Shown here in pieces: positions 7,824-36,444 of a stretch of 36,444 nt of DNA. The notes under the pieces are model-generated. The model was not told the origin of the DNA. It did not search any database and saw only the letters and a program-made list of their open reading frames with translations. Position 1 is the stretch's first letter, and each line of letters opens with the position of its first letter. This DNA is from Pigoraptor vietnamica. Taxonomy: Eukaryota; Opisthokonta; Filasterea. The stretch covers positions 1 to 36,444 of the forward strand of contig CALSCQ010002780.1 in the NCBI GenBank assembly GCA_943704525.1, read 5' to 3'. A program made the translations under genes and the position numbers.

Positions 7824-10800
7824 CTACAACGCCGCACATGTGTAGGCGCTCGCTTTGCTGTACGCGACGACGGCAAAGTCGCTCGCGCGGAGTCCACCGA
7901 CGGCGACAATCTGGACGCACCCGCGGATCGTAATCGCAGCCGAGCGGAGGTTCTGCAGCATCGTTCCCGTCGTGCTCACACCGCTCGACACGGCAACGCC
8001 GTTGTTGACGGAGACGGCCAGCGAGCCACTCCCGATAACCACTGTCACCGTGTGCTCGGCGCCGTCGTCCGTCAGAGCGCCGCCGACGCTTGCGACCACC
8101 CGCGCGGCCCGAGGGTCGAACAACGCGGAAGCAACGACGCGCCCGTTGATGTGCTGGACCTGGACCCATCTGGAATTGTCGGTGCTGTTGTACGCGAACA
8201 GGACGCCGTTCGAGTCGGTCGTGGCGAAGCGCAGTGTGAGCGTCATCTCCGCCTTGAGTGTCTGTGCGTTCGCCGTCGCCGCCACGCGCCCCCCGTCGCA
8301 CACAGAGACCACCTCGGGCAGCAGCTCGGGGGCGGTCGCGTCCGGCGCGCACTGCGAAGCGCACGTGCAGCACGTCGTCGACGCCCCCACCCACTGGGTC
8401 ACGTTGAGCGACGTGAGGGCGACGGTGTCGAGGTTGTTGATCGTCACGCACCCGTCGAGGCTTACCAGCAGCCTGTTGATGCCCTCGATCGACGCTGCGG
8501 TGGCGGTCGCCGTGGACGCAATGGAGCGGCCGACCATCACCGTCGCCCGCCCGTTTGTGGACGTGATGTTGACGGTCCGCTCGACGTCGTCGTCGAAGCG
8601 CCCCTGCAACCGCGCGGAGAGGGGACCGCTGCCGTAGTCAACCAAGAGGACGAGGTTTCCGTTCTCGAGCGTCAGCACGACCTTGTCGGCCGCCTTCCCC
8701 GTGAGGCTGAGGACGGTCCCGTTGAGTGCGCGGCTGCGCAGCTTGAGCGAAATGGCGAAGGACTTCCGGTTGTCCAGGAACGCGGGCGTCTGCGCTGCGA
8801 CGGACCCGCCGGCGCACATGCCCACCGTCGGCGACATGGTGGAGGGCGTGCCGGCGTACGCGTGGTCGTTGGCCGGGCACGCGCCGGTGACGTTGCGGGG
8901 GGCCGCGACGGTGTTGTTGCAGCCGCAGCACTTGTCCGATGCGCCGACCCAGTTCGTGAGGGCGATGTTTGCCGGCGTCACGCCATTGATGCCGTAGAGC
9001 GACAGGCACCCGCTGAAGCGCACGTCGACCCTCGTGATGCCATCCATCGTCGTCTCGGACATGCGTGGCGACTGGGCGGTCTTGCGCCCAACCGCCAACG
9101 AAACGCCGCCGTTTGAGGCCGTGAGCGTGACGTTGCGGAAGACGTTGTCGTGGAACGGGCCTGTGATCACCGCGCGGACCTCCCCTGCGCCAAAATTGGC
9201 CGTCGCGACGAGGTTGCCGGTGCCGGTGAGCCCGAGGGACAGTCCGTCGGTGCCATTTCCCGACAGCGCGAGGAGGACGCCGCCCACACGCGAAGCAGCG
9301 AAGCCGACGCTCACGGAGAACGACGCCTTGCCGTCGAGCACGGTGCGGGAGAGGGATCCCGAGACGACCGCCGCGCCGCCGCACATCCCGACCGTCGCCG
9401 GGAGCACCTGCGGCATGGTCACGAAGCGACCGCCCACCGATGGGCACATGGCGCCCGAAGTGGGCGTTGGCGACTGCGCAGCTGTGCTGGCCGTCGCGAG
9501 GCCTCCGGGCGTGCTGGACGCGGCCTGAGTCGCCTGTCCGCTCGCGCTCGCTGTGATGACCGTGGTAGTTGCTGCCGCTGCAGTCCCGGACGCCTGAGCG
9601 GAAGTCGCTGGAGACACCTTGGCAGTGGTGGACGCAGACGTCGCCGTCGTGGCTTTGCTCGTCGCAGACGCCTTGGCAGAAGTCGATGCGGACGCCTTCG
9701 CAGACGTTACAGACGTCGCCGTCGTCGCCTTGCTCGTCGTTTGCGCGGCCGCCGTCGTGGCCGAGCTCGCGGTAGCTTTCTTCGACGCTGTTGCGGACGC
9801 CGTCGCAGTCGACGCGACCGAGGGTGTCTTGCTCGATGCAGCCGCGGTCGTCTTCGTGGACGCAGTCGCCGTCTTGCTGGCCGAAGCGCTCGCCGTCGGC
9901 TTCGAACTCGCGCTCACTGTCGTCTTGGTAGCGGTTGTCGCAGACGCTGACCAAGTGGCTGTGCTCGAAGCACCGGCCGCCTTCGAAGTCGCCGATCCCA
10001 TTGCAGTCGCAACGGTTGAAGCTGCCACGGTCTTGCTTGCGACTGTCGCGGACGGTGAAGATGACGGCGACGCAGCTTTGGACGCCGCTGTCGTGCTGCC
10101 CGCTGTCACAGAGGGCGCCGCTGTCGTCTTGCTGGCCGCAGAGGCCGTCGCAGAGCTGGTGGCGACCTTGCGAGTCGACGCGAAGACACGCGCCCGCCAT
10201 CCGACGTGGGCACGGAATGCGCGCACAAAGGGCGCCGTGCCGCACATCGGACCGCAGCTCTTGTGGGCCTCCTTAAGGGCGGCCTGGCATGCGGCAAGGA
10301 CGGCCACGGGCTGGTTTCCGTACGTCGCGTTGCCGAGCGTCGCGTTGGTGTACGTCGCCACGGGCGCACACGCGACCGATGCGTTCGTTTGAGCGATGGC
10401 GCAGGTGCTACGCGCGCGGGCGGCGACGGCGGAAGACGATGCCATGCAGGCCTCGCTCGCGGCCGATGTGATGGCGCGCGCGAGCGACGCGACAGCGGAC
10501 GACTGCCTGCACGTGAATGCGAGAGGGGCAGCGGCGGTCTTGGTCCTGTTCGAGAGGGTGGAGAGGCGGCACGAGGCCCACCTCTGCACCGCGAGCGTGC
10601 AAGCGGCCGTCGGCGGGAGGCTGAACTGCTTGGCGGCAGCGAGAATCTCCGTCGTCGTGGCCGTTGGAGAGAACAGGCACACTGTCCTGAGGGCGTCGTC
10701 CGCCGCCGTGCAGTTGGCGGTGACCATGGAGAGCCCGGAGGCGCTGCTGCACTCGGTCGCGGGGGTACCGCAGTCGTCCCCGACAAAACCGACGGGGCAG

Positions 10801-13715: not shown

Positions 13716-14303
13716 GCTCGCGGTTGCACGCGCTGTGCTGACTCGACCGTTCTATAGTTAACGGATTGTTTCTCGCAGTCGGAGCAGCGGCTCAAACCGT
13801 AAGTAAGTAAGTTTGTTCGTTGATGCGCCGCCTTGGCGTGTTTTATCATGCCTGCATCCGGCCTCCCGACGTACTGTGGTCCGGCGTCAGTTGCTGTGGG
13901 CCCCTCAGCACCGACGCCGGCGAGTGTGGAGTCGCCGGGCAGCCAGCTGACTGCCGGAAGTGGGCAGTGACGTGCGGACGTGCGCTTGGGGCTGTCCCGA
14001 CATTCCAGTGCCTGCGGGACCTTCCAAACTGGGTCGTCGAAGGTCGATTGGGGAAAGTTGTCGCCGGTAACAGTGTGCGCAACGGGACTCTCCCTGCCTG
14101 CCAAATAAAGTGGCATTGCCTGGTTTGGGTATATCCGGAAAGATCCTGAATCAGGTGTATTCTGAAATTGCCTGATTTGGTATATTCGGAATTCCTTATT
14201 TGGAAATTTCCGATACGGGGAATGACTGATGGAAGTGGCATTTGTCCGGGTGTTACCGGCGACTGAGCCACACACGCACTCTGCCATGTGCCGGCGGCGC
14301 CAG
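13716..14303. promoter_or_regulatory. Divergent intergenic region, EGF/LamG and propeller genes
   Basis: The two genes start at 13715 (-) and 14437 (+), so this region should hold both promoters. On the minus strand a weak CTATAGAA lies about 40 bp before the EGF/LamG ATG. At 14114-14215 four imperfect 25-26-bp units follow one another, with the pattern TGCCTGATTTGGTATATTCG; they make an AT-rich island close to the TATA box at 14304. Confidence 0.55.
14114..14215 (+). repeat. Four degenerate ~25-bp tandem units
   Basis: Units start near 14117, 14145, 14168 and 14192. Shared parts are CCTGRTTTGG, TATAT and YCGGAA. Divergence between units is clear, so the array is old or under loose constraint. 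It sits about 100 bp upstream of the propeller gene's TATA box. Confidence 0.6.
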
Positions 14304-20112: not shown

Positions 20113-20841
20113 AGGCCAAACTGCGCCGATTGCGAGTCGAAGTGGCTCCGCGTGCGTGTGGACGGCCGCGAGTGTGCGTGAACTGAAACATTTGGCGAAA
20201 ATCGGCTCTGTTGGGGTGTATCAGTAATGAACGCGCTTCTCTGCCAAGCCAGAGTGCCGGCGTCGCACAACTCCGATGGCCTTTTTCCAGTCGTCTTTCT
20301 CTTCGATGTCAACACTTCTGCGCACGCACACTCTGCGCACACACACTCTACACGCCTTCACCGTAGTAACATGACGTAACGTTCGGATGAATTGAGATTT
20401 GTGCAATGGCTGTGTGATTTTTGAGGTCCAAATCAAATTAGAGTACGTGGTGGACCGGGTGTGCTGCTTTCAGGGTGGGTCATCCCCGTGGTCATTCTGG
20501 ACTGTAATGTGAAACTCGTTGGAAATTTTTTGCCTCCGTTATGCAGTTTCTCTCAATTTAAAAGTACTATCATTTCCATAAATGGTAATATTTTGACAGC
20601 GCGCATTTTTGAATTTTTGAATTTTTTGGGTGGTGAACACCCACTGACACACCACCGCCACACACACACACACACACACACATACACACACACACAGTTC
20701 CCATCCCACCGCTGTTCATTTCATCCTCGTAAACCAACAGTGGACATTGTAGTACTTCGGTTCGAGGTAAGCCTAGGTAGCCCCGAATACGTCAATCGGC
20801 GCACCGCACTTGGCGTTCCACGCGTCCCCGCATCGCCCGCG
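20113..20841. other. Intergenic: GH19 3' flank and ASPM promoter region
   Basis: The region becomes AT-rich from about 20380. A (CA)n microsatellite lies at about 20659-20697. Two TTTGAA hexamers in tandem (20608-20613 and 20616-20621) follow GCGCGCA. TTTGAA matches the metazoan cell-cycle CHR element, but AT-rich chance is possible. A GTAAGC at 20767 might mark a leader exon end; I see no matching acceptor before ATG 20842. Confidence 0.5.
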
Positions 20842-23800
20842 ATGGACGACAAGGAAAACTCGGCGCACGCCGACTTCCCCGTCCACCATGCGCGCGCACC
20901 TGCGGCCGTTTTCGCCGCTCACGACACAAACCGCCGCACGGACTCGGATGGGCCGCGCAAGGGTATGGCATTCAACGTCGATGTCGCTGTGGTGCCCACT
21001 GCGCCCGCGCCGGCCGAAGATGCCGTGCTCGTCCTCGCGCTGTTTGCGAAGCCGCCGCACATTTCGTTCGGCAACGTGACAGTGGGCGCGACTGGACTTG
21101 CGACGCTGCGCATCGAGAACCCGAACATACTCATGCACGAACTGACACTCGACAAGTGGCCCGCAGACAAGGGCTTCTCGATCGCGAACGCAGACGGCGA
21201 GCACGACGCCTTCTCCGTCCTTCCCAAGAGCTCCATCACGCTTACGATCGCGTGGCAGCCGACGGCGGAGGGCAAGTGCCGCGAGCAGATTACTCTCAAG
21301 TGGGATGGGCGCCACCGCGTCCAGGCGCTGCTAGTCGGCGACGCCGTCATCCCCAAGAAGGGCAGCAAGGCCCCGACCGCCCGCCGATCCATCGTGCCCG
21401 GTGTCGCGCAGTCGCGCCTGCGTCTCTCACTGAAGCCGACGGAGGCCGCTCCCGCTCCGAAGGCACGCGCGCCCGCACCCGCTGCCGCTCGCAAAGTGGT
21501 TAACCCTTACGCCGCGCGAAATGCGATGTACGACGAGCGGTGGATTGAGAAGCAGGAGAAGGGCTTCACGCGCTGGCTCAACTTTGTGCTGCTGCCGCCC
21601 GACACGAGCGACAAGGCGGCGCAGGGCCCTGCGGAGGTGCGTGTGGTTGTGCATGGCTGCGTTCGCATGCTTCCCTTCCACTCTATCGCATACTATCCCT
21701 CCCCCCCCTCTCTCCGTGCAGTGCCTGACATCATTCTCTTATGACACATGCAGGGCGACCTTCTTTACAAGAACGACACCATTGCGCGCGCACACGCCGC
21801 TGCCGTGCCGCGCGTGCTCTCCGCGCGGCGCCGCCTCAACCGCCAGCGCATGAGTGCGTGCGCGCTGTACCAGTCTCCGTCGTTTGAGGACATTGTGCGT
21901 ACGATCGACGGCGCGCTGGTGAGCGGCAGCATTTCCGTGAACCCCTCGGTCTCCCTCTCGGAGGACGTGCAGGTGCGCGACGACATTGTCGCGCTGCTGC
22001 TCGGCTACACGGTGTCGTGGCTTCGCCTGGCGCTCGAGACGGTCTTTGGTGAGCTGATCTCTCTCGGACCCCACGAGGAGGAGGAGATGACCCTCGCGAA
22101 CTTTGTCGTCGCGCGCGTTCTCAGCAACGAGGACGTGCTCGCGGCGTACCCGACCACCGGCGTGCGCGAGGCCTACTGCGCCGCGATGAACGCGTTTGTG
22201 ATCAACCGCATTCTCCGGGTCGTCATCTTTCTCGACAAGGCCAAGCTCGCGCGGATCGTCGACGGCGACCCGTGCCTATTCCGCCGCGACTCGCCCTGCA
22301 AGAGCTCCCGCGACGTGCTGCTGACGCTGAGCCGCCGCTACCTCACGCGCGAGGGGGACATTACTCGCCATTTGGCGCACCTCGGTTACACGGTGAGCCA
22401 CGTGCAGGGCGCCTTTGAGGAGTACGACTACACGACAGAGTCCCTCGCGAAGGACCTCACCGACGGCGCGCGCCTCGTGCGCCTCGTCGAGACGCTCACG
22501 GGCGACGCGTCCCTCTCGCGCAAGCTCAAGCTGCCCGCGACCACGCGCCAGCACTCGCTGAGCAACGTGGGCATCGTGCTCTCGGCGCTCGAGTGGCACG
22601 GCATCGTCCTCTCGGACGTGCGCGGGGGCGGCGTGACGGCGGAGGACATTGTGGACGGCCACCGCGAGAAGACGCTGGCGCTGCTGTGGAAGATTGTGAT
22701 GCGCTTCCAGGTGGAGGTCTTCGTCGACGTCGCCCGCCTGCGCGCGGAGGTTGACAGCATTCGCCGCGAGACGGCGGCGCTGACGCGTGGCGTGGACGCG
22801 CCCGCTCGCCGCGAGTCGCTCGAGGGCCTGTATTTCCAGAGCGAGAAGCTGTCGCTGCTGCTGCGCTGGTGCGCGGCCCTCTGCGAGCCCCACGGCGTCA
22901 AGGTCACCAACTTCAGCGCGTCGTTTGCCGACGGGCGCGCGCTGTGCCTCATCGTCAGCCGGTACCACCCGACGCTCCTCCCCGCCGCCCAGATCGCCAT
23001 GGAGACGACGCAGTCGCGTGCCTTTGCGGTGGACGGCTCCTCCGAGAGCGACCCCGAGGCGACTGCCCCCGTCGGTGAGGAGGGCTGGTCGGCCGCCTTC
23101 AGCCCCCCCAACGCCGACCGCCTGACCAAGAAGCAGCGCTCCCTCGCAGAGAACGAGCGCGCGAACTTCCGCCTTCTGCACGCGGCCGTGCGCCAGATTG
23201 GCGGCGTGCCTCCCATGGTCCGCGCCGCCGATGGCTCCCACGCCAACTCGGCCGCCGCGGCGATGCCGGACGAGCGCGTCTTGATCACATACGTGTCGTA
23301 TCTGTGCGCACGCCTGCTCGACATTGGGCAGGAGACGCGCGCCGCCATCCGCATCCAGCGCTGGTGGCGTACCATCAGCGCCGTCCGCGACGCCGTGGAT
23401 GCTCGCCGCTGCGCCGTCGCCGCTGCAGTCGCCGAGCACACGGCGCGCGCGAACCGCGCGGCCACGGTCGTGCAGTCGGTGTTCCGCGCGCGCCTGCAGC
23501 GGGCGCGGTTTGTGGCGTCCCGCAACGCTGCGACGGCCATTCAGAGGTTCTACCGCGGCGCGAGCGCACGCAAGGCATTCCTTGCCAAGCGCTCGGCGGC
23601 GGTGATCCTCCAGGCTGCCTTCCGCGCCTCTGTGGCTCGGTCGCAGTTCCTGCTCTTCCGCAAGTCGGCCGTTACCATCCAGCGCCGCTTCCGCGCGACG
23701 CTCGCGATGCGCCAGGCTGTTGCCGAGTACAAGAAGGCGTCGGCGGCTGTCGTCACGCTGCAGTCGGCGGCGCGCATGCACATTGCCCGCAAGGCGTTCC

Positions 23801-26800
23801 TCGCGCAGAAGGGAGCCGCGGTCACCATCCAGGCTGCCTTCCGCGCCCACGCCGCAAGCAAGAAGTTTGCGCTCGCCCGCGGTGCCGCAATCGCCATCCA
23901 GCGCCGCTTCCGCGCAACGCTTGCGATGCGAAAGGCCGTCGCCGATTACAAGAACACCAAGTCTGCCGCCGTCGTGCTCCAGTCGCTCGCGCGCATGCAC
24001 ATCGCGCGCAAGGCCTTCCTCGCGCAGAAGGGCGCTGCGGTCACCATCCAGGCTGCCTTCCGCGCTCACGCTGCGCACGTGAAGTATGCCGCTCTGCGCG
24101 CCGCCGCCGTCTCGATCCAGCGCCGCTACATCGCCACTCTTGCCATGCGCAAGGCCGTCGCCGAGTATGCGAGGACGAAGGCCGCCGTCGTTGCGTTGCA
24201 GTCGCTCGCGCGCATGCACATCGCACGCAAGGCGTTCTTCGCCCAGAAGAAGGCTGCTGTCGCTATTCAGGCCGCTTTCCGCGCTCACTCTGCGAGCAAG
24301 AAGTACACGGCCCTCCGGGCGGCTGCGATCGCCGTTCAGCGCCGCTTCCGCGCGACGCTTGCGATGCGCAAGGCAGTTGCCGAGTACGAGCGCCTTTCTG
24401 CCGCCGTGCTCCTTGCGCAGTCGCTTGTGCGCATGCGCATCGCTCGCAAGGCCTACGCGGAGAAGAAGGGCGCCGCGGTCACCATTCAGGCCGCCTTCCG
24501 CGCCCACGCTGCGAGGGCCAACTACACGCTTCTCCGCGGTGCCGCAATCGCCGTTCAGCGCCGCTTCCGCGCGACGCTTGCTATGCGCAAGGCCGTCGCC
24601 CAGTACAAGAGCGCCAAGTCTGCCGCCGTCGTGCTGCAGTCGCTCGTCCGCATGCGCATCGCGCGCAAGGCGTTCCTCGCGCAGAAGAGCGCCGCCGTTA
24701 CCATTCAGGCTGCCTTCCGTTCGTACGCTGCCAGCAAGAAGTACGCCGCCCTTCGTTCGGCGGCCGTCTCCATCCAACGCCGCTTCCGGGCGACGCTTGC
24801 GATGCGCAAGGCCGTTGTGGACTACAAGACGGCGGTCGGAGCGATCGTGACGCTCCAGTCGCTCGTCCGCATGCGCGCTGCCCGCAAGGCGTTCCTCGTG
24901 AAGAAGAGCGCCGCAACGAAGATCCAGGCCGCCTTCCGCTCCCATGCCGCGTCCTCCAAGTACGCGATGCTCCGCGGTGCGGCCATCGCCATGCAGCGAC
25001 GCTTCCGCGCGACGCTGGCGATGCGCCAGGCCCAGTCGAACTACGCGGCGGCTGTGTCTGCGGTGGTCGTGCTTCAGTCGGCGGCGCGCATGCGCATTGC
25101 GCGCAAGGCCTACCTCGCGCAGAAGAGCGCCGCGGTCACCATCCAGGCTGCCTTCCGCGCCCACTCTGCCAGCAAGAAGTACGCCGCCCTTCTCGCCGCC
25201 GTCGTCTCGATCCAGCGCCGCTTCCGTGCGACGCGTGCCATGCGAAAGGCCGTCTCGACATACAACGCGAAGGTGTCGGCCGTCGTTGCCATTCAATCAC
25301 TCGTCCGCATGCATATTGCACGCAAGGCCTACCTCGCGAAGAAGAGCGCCGCGGTCACCATCCAGGCAGTCTTCCGCGCGCACGCCGCGAGCATGAAGTA
25401 CGCGACTCTGCGCACGACGGCCATTTCGGTCCAGCGCCGCTTCCGCGCAACGCGTGCCATGCGCCAGGCAGTCGCCGAGTACGCGAGGACGAAGTCTGCG
25501 GCTGTCCTTGTCCAGTCGCTCGCGCGCATGCACATCGCACGCAAGGCGTTTGTTGCGCAGAAGAGCGCCGCGGTGGTCATCCAGGCTGCCTTCCGCGCCC
25601 ACTCTGCCAGCAAGAAGTACGCGACGCTCAAGTCGGCCGCGGTTGTCATCCAGCGCCGTTTCCGCGCGACGCTCGAGATGGGCAAGGCCGTCGCAGAGTA
25701 CAAGAAGAAGTTGGCAGCTGTCGTTGCCATTCAGTCGCTGGCGCGCATGCATATCGCCCGCAAGGCGTTCCTAGCGAAGAAGAGCGCCGCTGTTACCATC
25801 CAGGCAGCCTTCCGCGCGCACGCCGCGAGCAAGAAGTACGCGACTCTGCGCGCGACTGCCGTCTCGCTCCAGCGCCGCTTCCGCGCTACGCTTACCATGC
25901 GCAAGGCTGTCGCCAAGTACGAAAAGACGACCCATGCCATTGTGGCGCTGCAGTCGCACGCACGTGGACTCCTCGCACGGAAGGCGCTTGCGTCCCAGCG
26001 CACGGCCGCAACCAAGATCCAGGCCGCCTTCCGCGGGCACGTCGCGCGGACGCGGTTCGTGCAGCTCCGTGCGGCGGCCGTCGCGATGCAGCGGCGCTTC
26101 CGCGCTGCGCTCGAGACGCGCACTGCCTTTGCCGAGCGTCGCGCGCAGATTGCCCTCGCCGCCCAGCAGCGCAAGCGTGACGAGGCGGCGGACGTGATCT
26201 GCCGGGCCATGCGTCGGTTCATCCTCGTCCGCCGCGTGTCCGCCGTTCGCATCCAGGCTTGCGTGCGCGGGTTCCTCGCAAGGCGAAAGGTCGCGCGCGT
26301 CAAGAGCGGCATTGTGCGGCTGCAAGCGCTGTGGCGCGGGTACTGGCAGCGCAAGCAGGAGAAGTGCGCGAAGCTGAAGCAGATGCGCGCGAAGATCGAG
26401 GCGGTCAACGCCACGGCCGACGAGAAGCAGACGCTCGGCAACCGCACGCGTTCGGCGCTCGACGTGCTCCTCACCAGCAAGCAGCTCGCGTTTGTGCTCA
26501 AGGCGTGCGCCAATCTCGGTACGTGTCTCCTTTCCCTTACGCCTCCGTTGACTTTGTGTGCACGGTGTGCTATTCCCTTGCTTGCGTTGTGTGCCTTCGT
26601 GCGCCTCTGTGTGTATGGCATGCTCAGTGAAATGGGTACGTGTGCTTATCATGTTACACACTCTCTCGCAGACGTCGTCACGGGCCTGTCGTACGCGTGC
26701 TGCGAGCGCATGGTGGCCACGCAGCGCGCCGTGCCCATCCTCGTGCGGCTCATCCGCTCGTGCAACCGCAGCGAGCCGCACATGCAGGTGCTCCGCCACG

Positions 26801-27428
26801 CGCTGAGCATCCTCATGCACATTGCAGAGTGCCCCACGACCGCCGGCGCCGTCTTTTGCGAGGGCGAGGTCGTCGCGCTCGCCGTCGACATGATGCAGAT
26901 TTACCGCGAGCGCGAGGACGTCTTCCTCCCCGCCGCGCGCCTCGCTTCGGTCCTGTGCCGCGACGTGGAGAAGGCTGAGGTGCGTTTGGCGCGCTTTCTC
27001 GCGACTTGCAGTATTGTTGTCGTTGTCCCTCAATGATCCCCCTCTTAGCGTCCGTTTACTGTGACTCACTACACACTCGCCCCCCACAACACAAGGCACA
27101 CGACGCCCTCTTACCTTCCCTGAAAATCCGCGCACCTGTACATACACGCACCTAAAATCCTAACCCCCCACCATGTCGTCTGCGCGCGCAGCTCGTTCGC
27201 AAGATGCCCAACATGCTCCAGCGCATTGCTGGCATTGCGGCGCTCGTCGAGAAGAAGGGCACCTCGTCCAAGACGGCCGAAGCCCGCGCACCCCTCCGCC
27301 CCGTCTCGCGCAATATGGCGGCGTCCGGTCGTCACGCTGTCGCGGCCCACAAGCCGGCCAAATCGCCTATGGCGGCTGCCGTTGACGGCCTGCTGCAACA
27401 GCTCGCGACGGCGCCCAACGCGCGCTGA
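20842..27428 (+). CDS. ASPM: Abnormal spindle protein ASPM
   Basis: Exons 20842-21636, 21754-26518, 26672-26979 and 27192-27428 give 2034 residues with consistent phases. Order: ASH/MSP-like immunoglobulin domain (about 70-175, ISFGNVTVGATGLATLRIEN), conserved EKQEKGFTRWLNFVLLPPD before intron 1, helical ASPM region (VSWLRLALETVFGELI), first calponin-homology domain (about 474-590, DLTDGARLVRLVETL), second CH-like region (about 627-790, FADGRALCLIVSRYHP), about 41 IQ motifs (about 794-1804), and a short helical C-terminus (FVLKACANLD-VVTGLS). ASPM works at spindle poles, binding microtubule minus ends with katanin; IQ motifs bind calmodulin or light chains. The protein is shorter than human ASPM, mainly through fewer IQ motifs. 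ATG 20842 begins MDDKENSAH, the first Met before the ASH domain. Confidence 0.95.
23596..26004 (+). repeat. Eleven exact-length 219-bp tandem units (IQ triplets)
   Basis: Eleven consecutive units of 73 codons each, with no indel, encode three IQ motifs per unit: [AV]-x-IQAAFRAHAASKKYA, then IQRRFRATLAMRKAV, then LQSLARMHIARKAFLAQK. A partial 12th unit follows at 26005 and a diverged half unit precedes at about 23458. Units differ by substitution only, including many silent changes. Confidence 0.95.
26519..26671 (+). other. ASPM intron 2, length a multiple of three and stop-free
   Basis: Donor CTCG|GTACGT (phase 1) and acceptor CTCTCTCGCAG. The 153-bp intron reads through in frame and would insert 51 mainly hydrophobic residues if retained. 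Splicing restores NLDVVTGLS, which resembles the ASPM C-terminal helices, so it is called an intron. Confidence 0.75.
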
Positions 27429-27816
27429 GCAGCGCTGTTCCCTCGTCTGATCCACTGCCCGATGTCATGGGGCTGCCACTCGTGCGCGCTGCGTGCCACT
27501 CAACCACACACACCGCGTTTTGCGTTACGCGCGTTTTCATTGCGTCATTACATAGTCTGTCTCTTTCCACTCCTTTAACCACAGTGGCCGAGAGAGTTGG
27601 GAGTCACGTGAACATGAAAGGGGCGCCGTACCGCGTACGTGCATGCATAGACACACACACACACACACGCACACAGACATCGTTCGCATTCATCCAGTCG
27701 ACAAGGCATGTATTGGGCATCATGGATCGCGCGCCGCTGCCCCACTTCAGGGGCAGCAAAGCGGGCGTCCGTTGCTTCGCATTCCCCTAGTTCACGCACG
27801 CGACACACGACACATT
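27429..27816. other. Convergent 3' region between ASPM and HAUS2-like gene
   Basis: It holds the two facing 3' UTRs. A short (CA)n tract lies at about 27652-27676. A perfect 8-bp stem-loop lies at 27736-27757 (GCTGCCCC/GGGGCAGC, 6-nt loop), 60 bp beyond the HAUS2-like stop codon. No separate gene is supported. Confidence 0.6.
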
Positions 27817-28612
27817 CTACTGCGTGTTGGCAAGCTCCTGCAGCTTGCTCTGCATGCCGGCGAGTGCGAGGTGCGTCGATTGATACTTGGCCTGCACAGC
27901 CGCGAGCTCGTCGAGAACGGCGTCCTGCACAAACGCGTGTGAGGCGGTGTGAGAGTCAAGTAGATGTGTGTGTGTGTGTGTGTAGGTGTGTGCCCCAGAA
28001 TGTGGAGCGACACTGCGAAGGCAGCGATGTGACGCCCTCCAAGCACACGAGGCAAACAATAGTGGAGTTGACCGTCACATAACCCACGAGCTGGGCGTCG
28101 CGGCGGGGGAGGTCGCGGATCCACGTGATGTTGTCGAGCAGCCGCGGAAGGCCACCGATGAGTGACGCAATCTTGGGGAAGAGCGCCGTCACGTGCCTGC
28201 GGGGGCACAGTGCGCAATGTGAATGGGCAATTCTCTTTTGCAGGTGCAATTGAGGGTGTGCGTGTGAGTAAGTGTGTGTGCTTGTCAGTGAGGAGGAGAG
28301 CGAGCGCGTGGGCGACCCCACGAGGGCCACTAAGACAACTATTGAGAGAACGTGCGCGCGTGACTCACTCGTGGTACGCGGCGTCCACTTCGATGCTGTC
28401 GCCCACAAACGGGTTCTGCAGTCGCGCAATGATCGCATCCTTCGCCGCAAGGACCATCGTCACGTGAGCAGAGAGCTCCCGGAGCAGCGCCGCCTTGGCC
28501 TCTGCGCGTTTGCACGCGGTTACACGGAGGACAAGCACGCAGAAGCACACACGGACAACGACAAGCAGACGGAAGGGGCAGACAGGTGCACACACACACA
28601 CACACACACACA

Positions 28613-28644
<32 letters not shown>

Positions 28645-29359
28645 CACCATAAAACAGCTAAGCAGGCTGACAGGCCACGGCATGATGACCCATGACATCA
28701 TCGGCTGTTCGCGAGAGGACACGTGAAGCAGCTGTGCCGCTGAGTGTGAGTACGCGCAATGCCCACCAATTGCCGCGACACTCGTGACATCGGCCGATTG
28801 ACTGTGCTGAATTCGCACAAAGATCGCGTTGCTCGTCTGCGGAGGTTGTTGGTGCGTGTGAGCGACGCGCACATACTCGAAAGACTGTCTAAGGGTACGA
28901 GTGTGCGCGTGTGTGTGGTATCAAGCGTCGCACAGACACGTGCCTCGTCAAGCTCGTTGCGCAGTGTGGCGAGTTCGTCGAGCACGCGGATGAGTTGCAC
29001 GGAGTGGCTGTCCTGGGGGGCCTGAAAGGGGTCAGGTGCACGGAATGTGCGAGTGTGTGAGTGGGCGCTCGAGTGCGTTTCAGACGCATGTTCGCTCACG
29101 CGGACTCTTAGGGGATGTAACAGCAGCAAGGTCACGTGGACGGCCACGACAGCAGAAAACGGCTCCATCTCAGTCTTTGTTTGGAGTGCAAGACATGCGC
29201 GTGATGCGCTGATGGCTCCCACTGCTGCTCACGTGCCTCTGAGGGGGGCACTGCATAGCCCATCGAGTGCGCCAGTGCAAGGGCCTTGTCGATGCCCCCA
29301 AGCGAGGCGTAGGGAAACGGCTCGCTGCCGGCCCACGGGTTGGAGGCCTCTGTCGCCAT
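27817..29359 (-). CDS. HAUS2: Augmin complex subunit 2 (HAUS2-like)
   Basis: Five exons on the minus strand: 29359-29237, 29021-28940, 28501-28369, 28196-28088 and 27924-27817, giving 184 residues (human HAUS2 is about 235). The N-terminus has the short NPW motif (MATEASNPWAG) and an ALAHSMGY helix. A coiled coil follows (LIRVLDELATLRNELDEA), then the family core: LQNPFVGDSIEVDAAYHE, parallel to the LKP...LPIEAVYH of HAUS2, then LFPKIASLIGGLPRLLDNITWIRDLP, parallel to the L-x-T-IRNIP helix. It ends in a coiled coil (LAAVQAKYQSTHLALAGMQS). Augmin recruits gamma-tubulin to spindle microtubules for branching nucleation. The exon 1-2 junction needs a GC donor (GAG|GCACGT) to keep phase. The homology is read from short motifs, so a profile search should confirm it. 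Confidence 0.72.
28587..28641. repeat. (CA)n microsatellite in HAUS2-like intron 2
   Basis: About 55 bp of CA repeats with one AACA break, inside the intron between exons 2 and 3. A shorter (TG)n tract at about 27965-27989 lies in the last intron. Confidence 0.9.
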
Positions 29360-29720
29360 GTTGTCTCGCGGGTTGTGTGCGTGAACTGCGAGTGTATGGG
29401 TGCGCTGTTTGAATCGAGTGTGTTTAGTTTTGAATTTCCCGCGGCCTATCACTTTACGATTGATCGTAAAAGGTGTTGGGATGAATTTTACGCCGGAAAA
29501 TATTTGAAAAAACCGCGAATGGTGCGGCAGCCACACACACACACACACAACACAAGTGGCGCCCGCCGCAGCGAATTTCAACACACACACGCGCGCACAC
29601 ACGCACACGAACACCCACTCGCAAATAGCGCGCGCATTTCACGGCTGGTCCCGTGCGTGCGGGAGGGCCTGGGCGCCGTGGTGAGGAGCGAGCGGGGGAT
29701 CGCCCACACGCACGGCGAGA
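29360..29720. promoter_or_regulatory. Bidirectional promoter, HAUS2-like and ANKRD26-like genes
   Basis: Only 361 bp separate the two divergent start codons. TTTCCCGC at 29435-29442 is a perfect E2F core (TTTSSCGC). TTTGAA (CHR-type) occurs at about 29409-29414, at 29429-29434 directly before the E2F core, and again near 29502. An 18-bp inverted repeat, TTTACGATTGATCGTAAA, is at 29453-29470. A (CA)n tract starts at about 29532. No TATA box is seen. Confidence 0.6.
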
Positions 29721-32700
29721 ATGAAGCTCTTCAAATCGCTGGGAGGCAGCGGGAAGGCGACGTCCTCCGGCGGCGGCGGGGGTGCGGCGCAACCGGACTC
29801 GTCGCTGTACGATGACATTCGCGAGAAGGATTTGCCGAAAGTGCACAAGGCCGCGTGGACGGGGAATGCGGCGGAGTTGGCGACGCTACTGAAGAAGGGC
29901 GACGCGAACCAAACGGACGCGCACGGCAGGCGAGTGCGCAGGCCGGGGGACTCTGCGTGGCGCATGTGCATGGGACAATCAATTATCCGCGCATGTCTGC
30001 CTATTGCAATGCGGCCCATTCAACATGTACATACCTACTCCGACACACACGCGCGGGCGTGCGTGCGTGCGTGCACCTTTCTTGCACTGCACGTGTTGAG
30101 CGCGCGTCTAAGCCTTGCTTTCGTGTGCGCAGGTCGGCCCTCATGCTCGCAGCCATCAAAGGACACACCGACTGCGTCAAGGAGCTGCTCAAGAAGGGCG
30201 CTGTGCACGCACTCGACCCCAACAAGCACACGCCGCTCATGAAGGTGAAGTGCATGCATCTCGCCATGTGCGCGCGATTCGTCCTTTGTGGCTATGTGCG
30301 CGAGCAGCGTTGCAGGTGGAATTTCACGCACGTGGTGTAGCATGAGGCGCATGACAGGCGCGTGCGTACACTTGCCCGCTTGCGCCGTGTGGCTCACTGC
30401 GTGCGTGCTGTGTGTCCAGGCGGTGCTGGCGGGGCACACGGCCGTGGTGCAGGCGCTCCTAGCAAACGAAGTCGCCGGCAACGAGCGCGACGGAGATGGC
30501 GCAACGGCGCTCGTGCACGCCATCGCCGCGGGAAAGTTCGACATTGCGCGCATGCTCATCGAGCACAAGTCGGGGCTCGCTGGCACCGACAAGGTACGTG
30601 GGCAGCGCCACGTGTACGGCACACACACAAGGCTGGATTGCAAGCACGCGTCGTGAGAGAGAGTGCCATCGCGCGCAACTGTGGCTTACAGTGGTCCATT
30701 CGTGGCCTTGGTGATGACCCCATATGCCTGTCTCGGCGCAGCGAGGCAACACGCCGCTGCACATTGCGGTCCGCGACAACATGCCCGACCTTGCGCGGAG
30801 CCTGATTAGTGCGGGAAGCGACGTCAACGCGAAGAACAAGGAGCAGCAGTGGGTGTTGCGTGTGTGAGCCCGCGCGCGTGTGCGTGTGCGTGTGTTGTGT
30901 GTACGGGAGCGTGGATGCGTGCAGGTGCATGCCCCCTCCCTTTGAGTCTCACCCTGAATGCCCCGCAGCACTCCGCTGATCGTGGCGGCAGATGCGTCGA
31001 GTATGGACATGGCCGAGCTGCTTCTCAAATCCGGGGCGAGGGCGGGCGACAAGGACGGCAGCGGGTTCACGGCCATTGACCACGCCTTCATGAAGAACCC
31101 CGAATTTGGGAACCGCCTCTCCGAGCGCATCGAGGCACGTGACCGCTGTGTTGTGTTGTTGTGCGATCAAGGCCCACGCGGCGCTCACATGCACGAAGTC
31201 GCGAATGTGTGCGTGACAGTTATTCCTTGTACAGCAGGCGCAGTTGGACACAGACGCGCGAACATTCCTGTGCCGAAGCGCTGGCATTCGTCCACGCAAC
31301 CATCATGGCTGACCCACAAAATTCGTTCGCAGGGTGCGCCAAAGGACGGTTCCGACGACGAATACGCGCGGCGACCCGCCGCTCCAAAGCAGCCGTCAAT
31401 GGCCCCTGCGCTCAGCCGTCCCGCGGGCAAGCCGGACTTCCTCGCGAATCTGCTCGATCGCGAGTACTCTGACGACGACGACTCGCAGGACGCATCGAGC
31501 GCGCGGTCGCCTCCCGTCAAGGGCACCGGGGGTGCGAAGGGTCCGGCGGGTGCGGCCAAGGGCGGCGCTGCACAGGCGAAGGGAGCGGCCGCGAAGGCAC
31601 CTGCGGCGGCGCCTGCGAAGAAGAGGCTGCCGTGGGAAAGGGACGAGGACGAAGAGGAAGAGTCGGACGAAGACGATGACTCGCGCGACGACCCGCGCGG
31701 AAAGGGCCCTGCGCCGGCCAAGGGCTCGGCCGCGCCCGCAAAGGCTGCGCCGGCGGCAGTGGCGTCGAAGGGGTCCGCACCTGCAGCGACGAAGCGCATG
31801 CCGTGGGAGAAGGACGCGGCCGATTCCGAGGATGACGACGCATCGGACGACTCGCGTGGGGATTCGCCCACACCGCGCGCTCAGGCGGGAAAGGGGGCGC
31901 CCGCGACGACAAAGGAGGCGCAGAAGGGAGCGACCGCCGCACCGACTGCCGCCGCGAAGAAGAAACTCCCTTGGGACAAGGACGAGTCGTCGGACGAAGA
32001 GGCGCCCGCGCAGCCCGCATCCAAGGGCGCGAAGGCCGCAGTGCCAGCTGTGGGGAAGGACGGTGCGAAGGGCCCCGCTCCAATCGAGGCACCCAAGGCG
32101 GCGGCTGCGGCGGCTCCCAAAAAGCAGCCGTCGCTGGACAAGGGCCGGGACGACAGCATCGACGACGTTCTGTCGGACGACAACGCTAGCGAGCACTCGG
32201 AAGAACATTCGCTGGACGCGCTCGTGCGCAGGCGCGCAGTGCCGTCGAAGGGTTCGGCGCCCACTCAGAAGGACGCCGGCGTTAAGCCTAGCGCTGCGCC
32301 CGCACCCGCCGCGAAGCAGCCGCCCTCGCGCACCGCCAGTCGTGGCGATGAGAGCGACAGCGATGTCGTGGACTCCCCTCGCACTTCACCCCCGACTGCA
32401 CGCGCGGGTGCAAAGAGTGTCCCTGCCGCTGCGCCTCCGACGACGCAAGCGGCCGTGAAGCCCGCGTCGACAGCCGCACAAAAGGCGACACCTCGCCAGG
32501 ACAGTGCCGCGGAGGCGCCTTCCGGTGGCACTGGCGCTGCGGCGGTGAAGGGCCCGTCTGCGCAGGGCAGTGGGTTGCAGCCGCCCGCTGTCATGCCGAG
32601 GCAGTTTTTTGAGCCGACTGTGGAGCGTGGCGACATTTCGGACTCGTTTGACAGGTGTGTTGCGTTGGGTGTTTACATTGCATGGCGCTTGTAGGACTGT

Positions 32701-35700
32701 TTGTGGCCGCCGCTCGTTGTGCAATCTCGCCGCTGCTTATAATTCTTACCGTCCTCGCGATCTCTATGCGCGCGCGTGCGCTGACAATGACTCTCGCTTG
32801 CCGCAGCGACAACGACGACGGCGCGCCTGTCGAGCTTTCGCCGGCCATGTCGAAGGGCGTGGAGGCGATCGAGAAGGCAAAGCAGTCGCTTGCGCAGGCC
32901 AAGAAGAGCCCTGCGCCAGCGGCCGCGCAGCCCGTGGAACCGCAGGGTACGAAGGAGGGGGCGGCCGCGGCGAAGAAGGCGGCGGAGACGGCAAAGGAGG
33001 CGCCGAGGAGTGACTCCCCGTCGCTTTGGGATTCGACGGAGGAGGATAGCGCGCCTGCGGCTGCAGCTCCAAAGGGAGGGACCGCGCTTGCCGTGGAACG
33101 GGCGGAGAAGGAGAGGGTCGAAAAGGAGAAAGCGGAGAGGGAGAGGCTCGAAAAGGAAAAGGTCGAGAAGGAGCGACTGGAAAAGGAGAAGGCGGAGAAG
33201 GAGCGACTGGAAAAGGAGAAAGCCGAGAAGGAGAGGGCGGAAAAGGAGAGGCTTGAAAAGGAGAAGACGGAGCGAGAGAGGCTGGAAAAGGAGAAGGCGG
33301 AGAAGGCGACGCCCAAAAAGGGCCCCGCACGCGAGGAGACGCCGTCACCGTGGGAATCGAGCGACGACGACTCTGCGCCGGCACCCGTTTTCGGAAGCGG
33401 AGCGAAGGGGCTTGCCGGGCAGAAGGACGCCGGCGGCGCGTCTGGATCGCGGTACTCGGACATTCTCGCCGCGAACAAGGAGCTTCTTGGACGCTCGGGC
33501 GCCAACCTCAGCGCCGACGACCTCCCCGCGAAGGCGGCGGGGCCGTCCAAGTCTCTTGGTGCGCCTGCAACCGGCGCCCGCGGTGAGCCGAGCACCGGCG
33601 AGATATCTCCCGGCCTGCCGACGGGCTCTGATATTGACGAAGACGTCGACTTCTCCGCGGGGAGTGACGACGAGGGGTACCGCCCGTCCGCCGGGGGCCC
33701 GGCACCGGCGCTCCCCCGCCGCGTCGAGAGCCTGCATGCGGGTGGCACTGGACACGCACCGGCACCCCGCGCCCCCGAACCCCTCGCCGAACGGCGCGGG
33801 CTTCGCGACGTATCGCCCCTCCCCAGTGGTCACGTGGCACCGCTCGCGCCTCTTTCGGGACGCGCGGGTTCCGATGTGGATCTCACGGGCCGCGGTGCCG
33901 GGCGATCGCCGCGACTGGCGCCTCTCACCGCCGGCAGCCCTCGCTCGGCCAGCCCGGCGGGACGAAGCATTCCCCCGCTGCAGTCGCCACCGGCGGCAAC
34001 GGACCTGGCGCCGCTCCCGTCGCATGCTGGCGTGGGCGCGGGTGCTGGTCGTCCGGGACAGCCCACGTCGCTGCTCGGTCTGCGCACGTCGAGCGACGCG
34101 GAGGCGCACGATCGCGACGTCGCACGCACTCGCGGCGCCGGTGAACGCCAGGCGTCGGTTGGGTCGTCCGGTGGGCGGCAGTCCTCGGTTGCATCGTCGG
34201 CCGATCGGTCGCACTCTGCGGATGCGCCCGTGTCACGGCAGGGGACGCTGGACCGCGCGGGCTCTGAACGGGAGGGCGAGAAGAAGGGGGAGCGCACGCC
34301 GCCCATGGACAGCGCGGCAACGACCGCACCCGCGACGCGCCAATCGACCATGTCGCGGCAGGTGACGGACGCCGTTGCGCCGCCGCACGCCGCCGCAGAG
34401 GCCAAGGGCGCCACGAAGGACAAAGAGAGCGAATTGGACAGAGAGACGGAGAGCGAGCGACCCGCCGACCTCCCCCGCCGCCGCGCCCCGCTTCTGGGCG
34501 ACACGCGGCAGTCGACCGTCGCGTCGCAGTCGTCCATTTCGTCCGCGGTGAGTTACTTTGAGTCGCTGCGCATGGAGGACGACCCGGCCGCCGCCGCCGC
34601 GCGCGCACAGGCCGCCTCGCAGCGTCCGCGCACCCCCGAATTGCCTGCGGAGACGAAGGAAATCCCGGCGACGGCGACGGCGACGAGCGCGCATGCGAAC
34701 CACGCGATGCACGTGGATGGGGCACCGTCGACGGTCCGCAGCAGCGACGCTTCGCCAGGGACGGCCGAGGCGCATGTGTCCGGTGGGAAGCCGCCGCTGG
34801 GCCCTCATGGGATGTTGGGAGTCGACTACGCGCCGGTGGCGAGCGTGCGCGTGCCTTCACCGTACGACTCGCGGTATTTTGCCGCGCAGACGACGCCGCG
34901 CTCGGCGTATGCCCGTTACCACGCGCCCGTGGAAAGCCCCTACGTCCCACACTCGAGGCCGCACTCGGCGCTGTCGGCCGGGCTGCCAGTGGACTACGCG
35001 TCGCGGCTGAACACGGCGAGCAGTGCACCGGGTGTTGACGTTGCGGAGGGGGGCGCTGGCGGGGCGCAGGATGCTGCCGTGGGTGCGCTGCGCGAGTGGC
35101 TCGAGAGGGAGCGCTCGCTCCGGATGAGTGCCGAACGGCAAGTGCAATCGCTCAAGTCGCAGCTGTACGCGCTTGAGACCGGAGACACGAGGCGACTGGG
35201 CGACGAAATTCGCTCGCTGCAAACGGCGCTCGGGAGGGAGTCTGAGGTGTGTATGCGTGCATTTGTGTGTGGGAACGTGCACGAATCGCTGCCCATGCGT
35301 GTACTTCCCGCTTGCATGCGTCTGTGTGAACCCTTGTCGGTTTATTTGTCGGGTGCCTGGCTCACGTGTTTGCGCCGCAGCTCCGCCACCAAGCCGAACA
35401 AAGCCTGTCAAAGCTCGATGCGGAGCTCGAGCAGTACGCCCAGCACCTTACGGAGGCCACTGCGGTATGTGCGACCATCACTGTACGTGTGCCGTATTTC
35501 TGCCCTTTGTAGTAGTGGCATGCATCGTGACGGTTGTGTGCATGCGAGCGCGCGGGCACGTGACCCCTGTGGCCGATCGCTCACCGTCCGACGCTTGCAG
35601 GCGCGTAATATGGCCGAGTCGCAGCTGGGCGAGCTTGACCGCCAGTCACGCCGTCTCATGCAGCAGGTCCAGAAGGTCCGTGTGCCGAGCCCTCGCTACT

Positions 35701-36444
35701 TTTTGGGCCGTTCATGTTTTCTTCTTCGACAGAGTTGGCACGGATGCCTTTCTCGCTCTGCACGTCGCTAACGACGAAACAGTCTCTCTTCTCGTCGTCC
35801 CTTCTATTGCGCGCCCCTGTGAACAAGCAACATCTGACCCCAAGTGCTGTCTGCGCTTTCAATCGCTCGTGTGCAGGAGGCCGAGCTTCGCGCCGCCGCC
35901 GAGCGCCTTGCCCGCGAATCGCGCGCCAATTTGGAGCGATCGGAGGCGCGCGCCAACCAGGCAGTGAAGGAGAAGAACGCGTCGGAGTTTGCGCGGAAGC
36001 AGCTGGAGCTCGCTATTGGGAATCTCCAGAGTGAGTGCGCCTCTCTACACCGGGACAGTGCTTTGGGCAGCATGCATGCTTGGCACACAACGTGGTGCAT
36101 GTGCCTCTCTTTCAACGCGCACGCACGCACACTAACCCCCGACGCCCGCACAGGCACTCTGGCAAATGCCGAGCGCGACTTGGACGACATGAAGCGCCAG
36201 CTAGACAGCGAGCGCGCCGCACGTGAGGCGCAGAGCCGCATTCTTGAGGAGCAGACGCGGCTCCGCGAGACACTCGAGGAAGAGACCCGCCTGAGCCTCC
36301 AGCGCAAGGACGAGGTCTTCAGCCATCTTGAGGCTGCCGACGGCGCCCAGCGCGCCCTCCGCCAGCGGAACGACCAGCTGTCGCGCGAGATTGCGACGCT
36401 CAAGTCGGAGTTGGCGCGCGAGAAGGCGGCGGTGGCGCAGGTGC
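29721..36444 (+). CDS. Ankyrin / acidic linker / coiled-coil protein, ANKRD26-type, 3' end missing
   Basis: Eleven exons: 29721-29929, 30133-30244, 30420-30593, 30742-30848, 30969-31134, 31333-32654, 32807-35246, 35381-35464, 35601-35675, 35877-36030 and 36154 to the window end; at least 1711 residues. DIREKDLPKVHKAAWTGN opens seven ankyrin repeats (to about 256) and closely resembles the ANKRD26/POTE start (IRD-x-DLGKIHKAA). Residues 257-1450 are disordered: W-centred acidic motifs (LPWERDEDEEEE, MPWEKDAADSEDD, LPWDKDESSDEE, SLWDSTEEDS, SPWESSDDDS), an ER/K helix (about 793-865) and six RQx[ST] motifs (1143-1275). From about 1455 a long coiled coil (ALREWLERERSLRMSAERQV) runs off the window. 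ANKRD26 sits at centriole distal appendages; UACA and RAI14 share the ankyrin-plus-coil plan and are alternatives. Exon 1 ends at a GC donor (CAG|GCGAGT). Confidence 0.85.
29930..30132 (+). other. Probable GC-AG intron
   Basis: Only the donor GGCAG|GCGAGT (phase 2) joined to GTGCGCAG|G restores the ankyrin motif DAHGR-SALMLAAIKGH. The nearby GTGCGC donor gives the wrong phase, and a phase-matched GTGGCG would insert nine extra residues into the repeat. Confidence 0.7.
31135..31332 (+). other. Intron with two possible models
   Basis: Model A: GC-AG, GAG|GCACGT to TTCGTTCGCAG, phase 0, 198 bp, stop-free. Model B: GT-AG from 31139 to 31234 (CAC|GTGACC to CCTTGTACAG), phase 1, which adds about 34 residues of plain sequence before GAPKDGSDDEY. 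A is preferred for its acceptor and CTGAC branch-like site; B has the usual dinucleotides. Confidence 0.5.
33095..33310 (+). repeat. Degenerate repeat coding an ER/K helix
   Basis: About ten 18-21-bp units of the type GAGAAGGCGGAGAAGGAG encode alternating E-K-E-[RK] with Leu, Ala or Val every third to seventh residue. Glu and Lys/Arg are spaced i, i+4, as in single stable alpha-helices. Confidence 0.85.

Follow-up and report, generated by a model that had tools for sequence, protein, structure and literature searches.

Adjacent ASPM, HAUS2 and ankyrin/coiled-coil genes in Pigoraptor vietnamica, and hints of an E2F/CHR-type promoter element common to unlinked division genes

Gene content and arrangement of the locus

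As Table 1 shows, the window (the whole contig of 36,444 nucleotides) carried an ASPM gene, a HAUS2/AUG2 gene and a gene for an ankyrin/disordered/coiled-coil protein. The spliced models placed them side by side on the strands +, - and +, the order given in a preliminary description, and the third gene is incomplete because the contig, which the window covers in full, ends within it. The 361-bp promoter reported there between HAUS2 and the ankyrin gene was recovered from ATG to ATG, and the convergent 3' region of ASPM and HAUS2 was present as well, with a measured length of 387 bp and not 388 bp. No extra gene was seen in the gaps between the three genes, in keeping with the claim that nothing lies between them; such tightness is ordinary here, with about 10 genes in 36.4 kb by our own count. 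Part of the ankyrin gene region has a diverged partial duplicate on contig C450. This contig was rejected as the missing 3' continuation of the gene, as the partial duplicate stops at the same base.

Table 1. Coordinates of the genes, regions and promoter elements, and placement of the exact copies of the 15-mer
Feature	Position	Strand	Details
ASPM gene	exons 20842-21636, 21754-26518, 26672-26979, 27192-27429	+	4 exons, 20842-27429; 2034 aa; open spliced frame, GT-AG introns (spliced reading of the window)
HAUS2/AUG2 gene	exons 29359-29237, 29021-28940, 28501-28369, 28196-28079, 27924-27817	-	5 exons, 29359-27817; 187 aa; spliced model and Pfam; GC donor modelled at intron 1
Ankyrin/disordered/coiled-coil gene	exons 29721-29929, 30133-30244, 30420-30593, 30742-30848, 30969-31134, 31333-32654, 32807-35246, 35381-35464, 35601-35675, 35877-36030, 36154->36444	+	11 exons before the contig ends; 1711 aa; spliced model; GC donors modelled at introns 1 and 5
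Convergent ASPM-HAUS2 3' region	27430..27816	.	387 bp
Divergent HAUS2/ankyrin promoter	29360..29720	.	361 bp, ATG to ATG
GCGGGAAATTCAAAA composite	29428..29442	-	E2F-type TTTCCCGC (29435-29442) fused to CHR-type TTTGAA/TTCAAA (29429-29434)
Two overlapping TTTTGAATTT	20607..20624	+	some 220 bp upstream of the ASPM ATG, adjoining GCGCGC
Stretch with diverged partial duplicate	31552..36444	+	copy at C450:42075-47051, same end base
Exact 15-mer, HAUS2 promoter			one seed of the pattern
Exact 15-mer, CENP-F-like gene	starts 262 bp before ATG		a 37-aa exon piece matched CENP-F_N below its cut-off (1.2e-6, 28.9 bits vs 37.7)
Exact 15-mer, NCAPG2	about 75 bp before an ATG assigned by eye		Condensin2nSMC 8.6e-42
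Exact 15-mer, SPICE-like gene			weak: E 0.067, 12.9 bits, cut-off 27
Exact 15-mer, fifth promoter copy			beside an actin-fragmin-kinase-like gene and genes without assignment

Identity of ASPM, HAUS2 and other augmin subunits

The ASPM product was scanned with Pfam over its first 970 and last 287 residues of 2034, the middle of the IQ array lying outside the scan. An N-terminal ASH domain (PF15780; 1.9e-18, 66.9 bits, cut-off 27), CH domains in two stretches (1.7e-15, 57.6 bits) and IQ repeats in both the first 970 residues (5e-18, 63.6 bits) and the last 287 (7.3e-10, 38.2 bits) were found, and past the IQ repeats no Pfam family reached its cut-off. The HAUS2 product matched the Pfam HAUS2 profile over residues 66-169 (7e-19, 68.8 bits, cut-off 27), which was the only over-cut-off match of this profile in an exon-by-exon search of the genome. 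It also aligned over residues 6-142 with plant AUG2 (9nba_B; E 3.1e-11) and matched Xenopus HAUS2 (8at3_E; E 2.8e-6). ASPM is a spindle-pole/minus-end protein and HAUS2 is an augmin subunit of microtubule branching; judged by these profiles, both are real spindle genes. HAUS6 was located on contig C934 (HAUS6_N 54.3 bits, cut-off 26.4) and HAUS3 on contig C637 (27.7 bits on a 33-aa piece, just under the Pfam cut-off of 29.4), each on another contig and unlinked to HAUS2.

The ankyrin/coiled-coil gene

Ankyrin repeats open the third product; a disordered middle and then a coiled coil follow. Its gene runs off the contig. Pfam was applied to residues 1-326 and to the last 355 of the 1711 residues. 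The N-terminus matched Ank_2 (2.4e-38, 131 bits), a generic family, and comparison of the ankyrin part with the PDB returned generic repeat matches only. The best Pfam family for the coiled coil was CCDC144C (E 1.1e-7), at 31.3 bits and below the cut-off of 35. On single exons, the window exon scored 20.8 bits and a myosin-tail-like exon 20.0 bits. This myosin-tail-like exon was the one control piece of seven for which CCDC144C was listed, the other six being without it. The CCDC144C similarity was rejected as proof of ANKRD26, since it is below the cut-off and the myosin-tail-like exon scores alike.

We rather doubt that this gene is an actual ANKRD26 orthologue acting at distal appendages. 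The ankyrin N-terminus, the acidic disordered middle and the coiled coil with CCDC144C as its best family would fit such an orthologue, as would the listing of CCDC144C by just one of the seven controls and the IFT46 genes in the genome, which suggest cilia. The IRxKDLxKxHKAA pattern at the N-terminus and the PW[DE]-acidic repeats are also, we presume, reminiscent of ANKRD26. However, the coiled-coil score lies under its cut-off, the single-exon score is matched by the myosin-tail-like exon, the gene is truncated, its ankyrin matches are generic, and DUF3496 had no match genome-wide in an exon-by-exon search that is weak and covers the window gene without its C-terminus. The SAS-6_N profile gave no match in the genome, and its controls were likewise silent. 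Profile searches of the three products thus upheld the preliminary calls of ASPM (ASH, tandem CH and IQ profiles) and of a HAUS2-like subunit (Pfam HAUS2 and plant AUG2), while the ANKRD26 label, based on sub-threshold coiled-coil similarity, is not established. We describe the third gene as encoding a predicted ankyrin/coiled-coil protein.

Promoter elements of the three genes

In animals, E2F and CHR-like (TTTGAA) elements are read by E2F/DP and LIN54-MuvB (DREAM) proteins. The HAUS2/ankyrin promoter contained three TTTGAA-type sites (29408, 29429 and 29503) and one E2F site. The second of these forms the composite GCGGGAAATTCAAAA with the E2F site, 68 bp from the HAUS2 ATG, and a search of the 32.5-Mb assembly returned seven exact copies, this composite included. 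When the promoter was subjected to 2000 dinucleotide shuffles, three TTTGAA-type sites were reached in 2, an E2F site no more than 12 bp from a CHR in 7, and a lone E2F site in 335. Across the window, the E2F consensus alone showed no excess (11 vs 10.7 expected), nor did RFX X-boxes with up to two mismatches (63 vs 58.8 expected). None of the four tested element types was present in the convergent ASPM-HAUS2 region.

The ASPM promoter had no E2F site, and its two plain TTTGAA were reached by 65 of 2000 shuffles. The exact word TTTTGAATTT occurred three times in the window, always in the ASPM and HAUS2/ankyrin promoters, a count reached by 1 of 100 whole-window shuffles; it was absent from 113.9 kb fetched for other reasons. 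TTTGAA was also observed upstream of an unrelated gene of the window (17515).

Distribution of the composite in the genome

The composite pattern was derived from the HAUS2 and HAUS6 promoters. The 13-mer GCGSGAAATTSAA had 29 sites in the genome and its reversed control 1, a control that overstates the excess because 13 of the 29 sites are coding by eye. Three others were gene-internal or intronic (one intragenic site sits in a CAF1B-like gene), seven were without assignment, and six were in promoters. The whole 29-to-1 excess was rejected as regulatory, only these six being promoter-placed by eye. With up to one mismatch, GCGSGAAATTCAAAA had 40 sites vs 5 for the control. Five of the seven exact copies of the 15-mer were placed in promoters (Table 1), the site-gene assignments being mostly by eye and some confirmed by Pfam. 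Nine of 18 further one-mismatch sites were fetched: one was coding, six were without assignment, one lay just upstream of a GIY-YIG gene (SLX1-like by eye) and one fell within an NCAPD2-like condensin gene whose Cnd1_N match exceeded the cut-off.

The HAUS6 promoter carried the variant GCGCGAAATTGAATTT, starting 113 bp before the ATG, with TTGAAT joined and TTCGAA further on, and the HAUS3 promoter carried GCGCGAAA, 9 bp and then TTTGAA starting 79 bp before the ATG. An E2F site adjoining TTYRAA was present at HAUS2, HAUS3, NCAPG2 and the CENP-F-like gene, whereas ASPM was without the E2F half. In the 113.9 kb, part of which comes from HAUS and MCM loci, three E2F sites lay no more than 12 bp from a CHR, at the HAUS3 gene and at two MCM loci. 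MCM profile matches lay on eight contigs, and the upstream regions of six were scanned. Clustered E2F sites were found upstream of four of these six genes (raw count); the remaining loci had two separate E2F sites (C1088) and a single upstream site (C344).

We consider it unlikely that the TTTGAA and E2F sites are general AT-rich core-promoter sequence with no cell-cycle code. By the standard of this genome the promoters are rich in AT (0.39-0.53), the TTTGAA before the unrelated gene would agree with such an origin, and the plain counts are no more than mildly unusual (65/2000 at ASPM, 335/2000 for the lone E2F site). However, shuffling of these promoters seldom produced the long word or the composite (0 to 7 of 2000), and the nameable genes at promoter composites are mostly mitotic and replication genes.

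Adjacency and possible co-regulation

The three genes had been proposed to be co-regulated on the grounds of their clustering. Adjacency alone is weak evidence of this, because genes are dense and the contigs with HAUS6 and HAUS3 are different ones; the hint of joint control comes from the promoter element common to unlinked division genes. Co-regulation thus gains nothing from the clustering, and for HAUS2, and more weakly ASPM, it draws support from promoter elements at unlinked cell-cycle genes. A selected cluster, in which adjacency itself coordinates the three genes through a shared chromatin domain and the divergent promoter, appears very unlikely. HAUS2 and the ankyrin gene do have one 361-bp promoter in common, and the parts of PMC2851598 and PMC3129673 consulted describe the expression of neighbouring eukaryotic genes as more alike on average; however, the other augmin genes are unlinked, and we estimate that 0.2 to 4.6 such triplets per genome are expected by chance (about 8,900 genes, of which 3-8% were assumed to be microtubule/centrosome genes). 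The trio was not reported as a cluster among the literature matches listed, which is no proof of absence from print.

The three are probably ordinary genes that became neighbours by chance in a compact genome. A dispersed E2F/DREAM-type cell-cycle code probably acts on HAUS2 and, less surely, on ASPM. We favour control by such a code because similar elements occur at unlinked augmin, condensin and CENP-F-like genes and E2F clusters at most of the scanned MCM genes. Joint expression would then need no clustering: HAUS2, and less surely ASPM, would be controlled through E2F and/or CHR-like promoter elements, like those upstream of the unlinked genes. E2F/LIN54-type proteins would exist in the genome and bind the sites, genes with sites would be expressed periodically, and the ankyrin gene would respond to the promoter shared with HAUS2. 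More tentatively, it is possible that the fused element GCGSGAAATTCAAAA acts as a DREAM-type code for unlinked augmin, condensin, CENP-F-like and other centriole/spindle genes, with the ankyrin gene encoding a new cell-cycle centrosomal protein under it. If true, this would mean that an E2F/LIN54-type cell-cycle code governs spindle genes in a further protist lineage, and unknown division genes could be found by promoter alone, with the ankyrin gene and the C1211 gene as examples. Without a genome-wide control, it would be a mistake to interpret neighbouring genes of one pathway as an operon-like cluster.

Comparison with known systems

Like known ASPM, the product has an ASH domain, two CH stretches and an IQ array; it differs in its length of 2034 aa, its highly repetitive IQ array and having no over-cut-off family beyond the IQs. 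The HAUS2 product resembles HAUS2/plant AUGMIN subunit 2 in profile and AUG2 alignment but is shorter (187 aa) than the plant chain 9nba_B (296 aa). The third product shares ankyrin repeats, an acidic disordered stretch and a coiled coil with the ANKRD26 family, whereas it has no family-specific domain over the cut-off and its C-terminus is missing.

A dispersed E2F/DREAM-type cell-cycle code as such is already known in animals and Tetrahymena. The E2F/DP-LIN54 hybrid motif (CDE/CHR; DREAM/DRM targets) is described for human, fly, worm and Tetrahymena in the portions consulted of PMC3093354, PMC8216455, PMC4974476 and PMC5716687, and the human DREAM-CHR target list, as excerpted from PMC4705690, contains ASPM, CENPF, NCAPG2, NCAPD2 and HAUS8. 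Compared with CDE/CHR as described in these excerpts, the two sites are fused here without its four-nucleotide spacer, and the element here is a candidate defined by its sites; it resembles the hybrid motif in joining an E2F site, TTTSSCGC, to an adjoining TTYRAA and in its putative cell-cycle gene targets.

Gene models and identities

The assembly comprises 32.5 Mb in 1395 contigs, one of which, C1157, corresponds in full to the window. Exon–intron models of the three genes were spliced by hand, and all three frames were open. GC donors were selected in 3 of the 17 modelled introns, namely HAUS2 intron 1 and ankyrin introns 1 and 5, because the reading frame demands them. HAUS2 and the ankyrin gene each had one intron with the donor GAG|GCACGT. 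The divergent HAUS2/ankyrin gap was 361 bp, as first described, and the convergent ASPM/HAUS2 gap was 387 bp instead of 388.

Features of the window and of related loci
Feature	Position	Description
EGF/laminin G frame	7824-13751 (-)	Open frame, 1975 aa, teneurin-type EGF and laminin G domains
ASPM	20842-27429 (+)	4 exons, 2034 aa
HAUS2-like gene	29359-27817 (-)	5 exons, 187 aa
Ankyrin gene	29721-36444 (+)	11 exons, 1711 aa as far as contig end
GC-AG introns	29237, 29929, 31134	
E2F/CHR-type composite	29428-29442 (-)	HAUS2/ankyrin promoter (29360-29720)
Acidic repeats	31333-34400	Disordered part of ankyrin protein
Partial duplicate (L017)	31552-36444; C450:42075-47051	93-95% over two aligned blocks
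Terminal match	C450:46907-47051	99% to final 145 bp of window
Exact 15-mer 1		CENP-F-like promoter, starts 262 bp before ATG; profile positions 1-36, E 1.2e-6, 28.9 bits, under cut-off 37.7
Exact 15-mer 2		NCAPG2 promoter, ~75 bp before by-eye ATG; profile E 8.6e-42
Exact 15-mer 3		HAUS2/ankyrin promoter (pattern's seed)
Exact 15-mer 4		SPICE-like promoter; weak, E 0.067
Exact 15-mer 5	C1211:13048-13062 (L057)	Divergent promoter, actin-fragmin-kinase-like gene/unassigned acidic-protein gene
Exact 15-mer 6		Coding site (by eye)
Exact 15-mer 7		Intron of pepsin-like gene (by eye)
E2F + CHR		HAUS3, 79 bp before ATG (by eye)
E2F + CHR		Two MCM loci
IFT46 genes, very different	L025 (C408); L026 (C1233)	One matched as two pieces of a single open frame, the other as four

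The profile scan of ASPM, covering the first 970 and last 287 residues, found an ASH domain (66.9 bits), CH in two stretches and IQ repeats, which upholds the ASPM label. The HAUS2-like label also held: the HAUS2 profile matched residues 66-169 at 68.8 bits (cut-off 27), the top PDB relatives were plant AUGMIN subunit 2 (E 3.1e-11) and Xenopus HAUS2 (2.8e-6), and the window gene was the sole above-cut-off match genome-wide. Both of these genes, ASPM and HAUS2, are of an ordinary conserved kind.

The ankyrin gene and its duplicate

The ankyrin protein was scanned over residues 1-326 and the last 355. Its ankyrin repeats were strong yet generic in the profile scan and PDB search. The best family for the coiled coil was CCDC144C (31.3 bits, E 1.1e-7), under the cut-off of 35. 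For single exons, CCDC144C scored 20.8 bits in the window versus 20.0 bits for another exon of this genome, which is myosin-tail-like; the profile also gave below-cut-off matches in two bacterial controls, and was unlisted for six further control pieces (for one of them, among the best 25 of 42 families). DUF3496 had no match in the genome, where the ankyrin gene is cut at the contig end. The ANKRD26-type label of the preliminary description is therefore no more than a possibility. Its disordered part carried at least five short PW[DE]/LW[DE]-acidic repeats (LPWERDEDEE, MPWEKDAADSED, LPWDKDESSDE, LWDSTEEDSA and PWESSDDDSA).

C1157 and contig C450 share the same terminal base. The C450 copy contained an in-frame stop and small frameshifts, and the final 20 kb of C450 had no match to the ankyrin exons. 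The copy is apparently a partial duplicate in decay, which interrupted assembly and left the ankyrin gene cut.

Clustering of the three genes

Co-regulation had been proposed because the three genes lie side by side. At about 10 genes per 36.4 kb, the window extrapolates to ~8,900 genes genome-wide; with an assumed 3-8% of microtubule, centrosome or cilium genes (our own assumption), 0.2-4.6 three-gene runs are expected by chance. The augmin genes HAUS6 (C934) and HAUS3 (C637) were unlinked to the window. Clustering therefore carries little weight and is probably due to chance. A better basis for co-regulation would be a dispersed E2F/CHR-type code, which is seen in how the sites are distributed and whose function is inferred.

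Promoter elements in the window

TTTTGAATTT occurred three times in the window, always within the ASPM or HAUS2/ankyrin promoters, a count equalled in 1 of 100 whole-window shuffles. It was absent from 113.9 kb fetched for other reasons, and it recurred at loci fetched via a related pattern, as expected by construction. In the HAUS2/ankyrin promoter, TTTTGAATTT and TTTCCCGC overlapped to form GCGGGAAATTCAAAA on the opposite strand. Shuffles of this promoter gave three TTTGAA-type sites, an E2F site no more than 12 bp from a CHR, and a lone E2F site in 2, 7 and 335 of 2000, respectively. Shuffles of the ASPM promoter, in which the scan found no E2F site, gave two TTTTGAATTT in 0/2000 and two TTTGAA in 65/2000. 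Both TTTTGAATTT and the composite were absent from three other scanned window promoters, one of which contained TTTGAA.

Genome-wide distribution

The 13-mer GCGSGAAATTSAA had 29 genomic sites versus 1 for the backward-read pattern, and GCGSGAAATTCAAAA, with at most one mismatch, had 40 versus 5 for its control. By eye, 13 of the 29 13-mer sites were coding, so the backward-pattern control is too kind. The 13-mers at L039 (C330) and L032 (C110) lay in two similar AT-rich contexts, one adjoining frames that resemble retroelements by eye, and are perhaps repeat-borne copies. Apart from the seed, mitotic genes were found at two of the four exact 15-mer promoter sites, and a third was weak. The acidic-protein gene at L057 is a candidate new cell-cycle gene.

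HAUS6, also a pattern seed, carried GCGCGAAATTGAATTT from 113 bp before the ATG, with TTCGAA farther along. In the 113.9 kb, a CHR had an E2F site at most 12 bp away in three places; HAUS and MCM loci, picked as cell-cycle genes, make up part of this set, and the count is therefore supportive, not unbiased. Upstream E2F clusters were present at four of six scanned MCM genes (counts without shuffle control), including three sites within ~40 bp at the C489 gene; the remaining two had one or two separate sites.

Comparison with known cell-cycle elements

As described in passages of PMC4974476 and PMC5716687, the human CHR (TTTGAA; LIN54 consensus TTYRAA) brings in MuvB/DREAM, and the CDE lies four nucleotides upstream of it. 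The human DREAM-CHR target list includes ASPM, CENPF, NCAPG2, NCAPD2 and HAUS8 (PMC4705690). Worm, fly and human are reported to have a hybrid E2F-LIN54 motif (PMC3093354), and Tetrahymena a hybrid E2F/DP-CHR-like one (PMC8216455); this kind of element is therefore already known. In contrast to the four-nucleotide spacing of the human CDE/CHR, the window composite is fused; the present case adds a protist example of an E2F/CHR-type element and its spacer-free arrangement.
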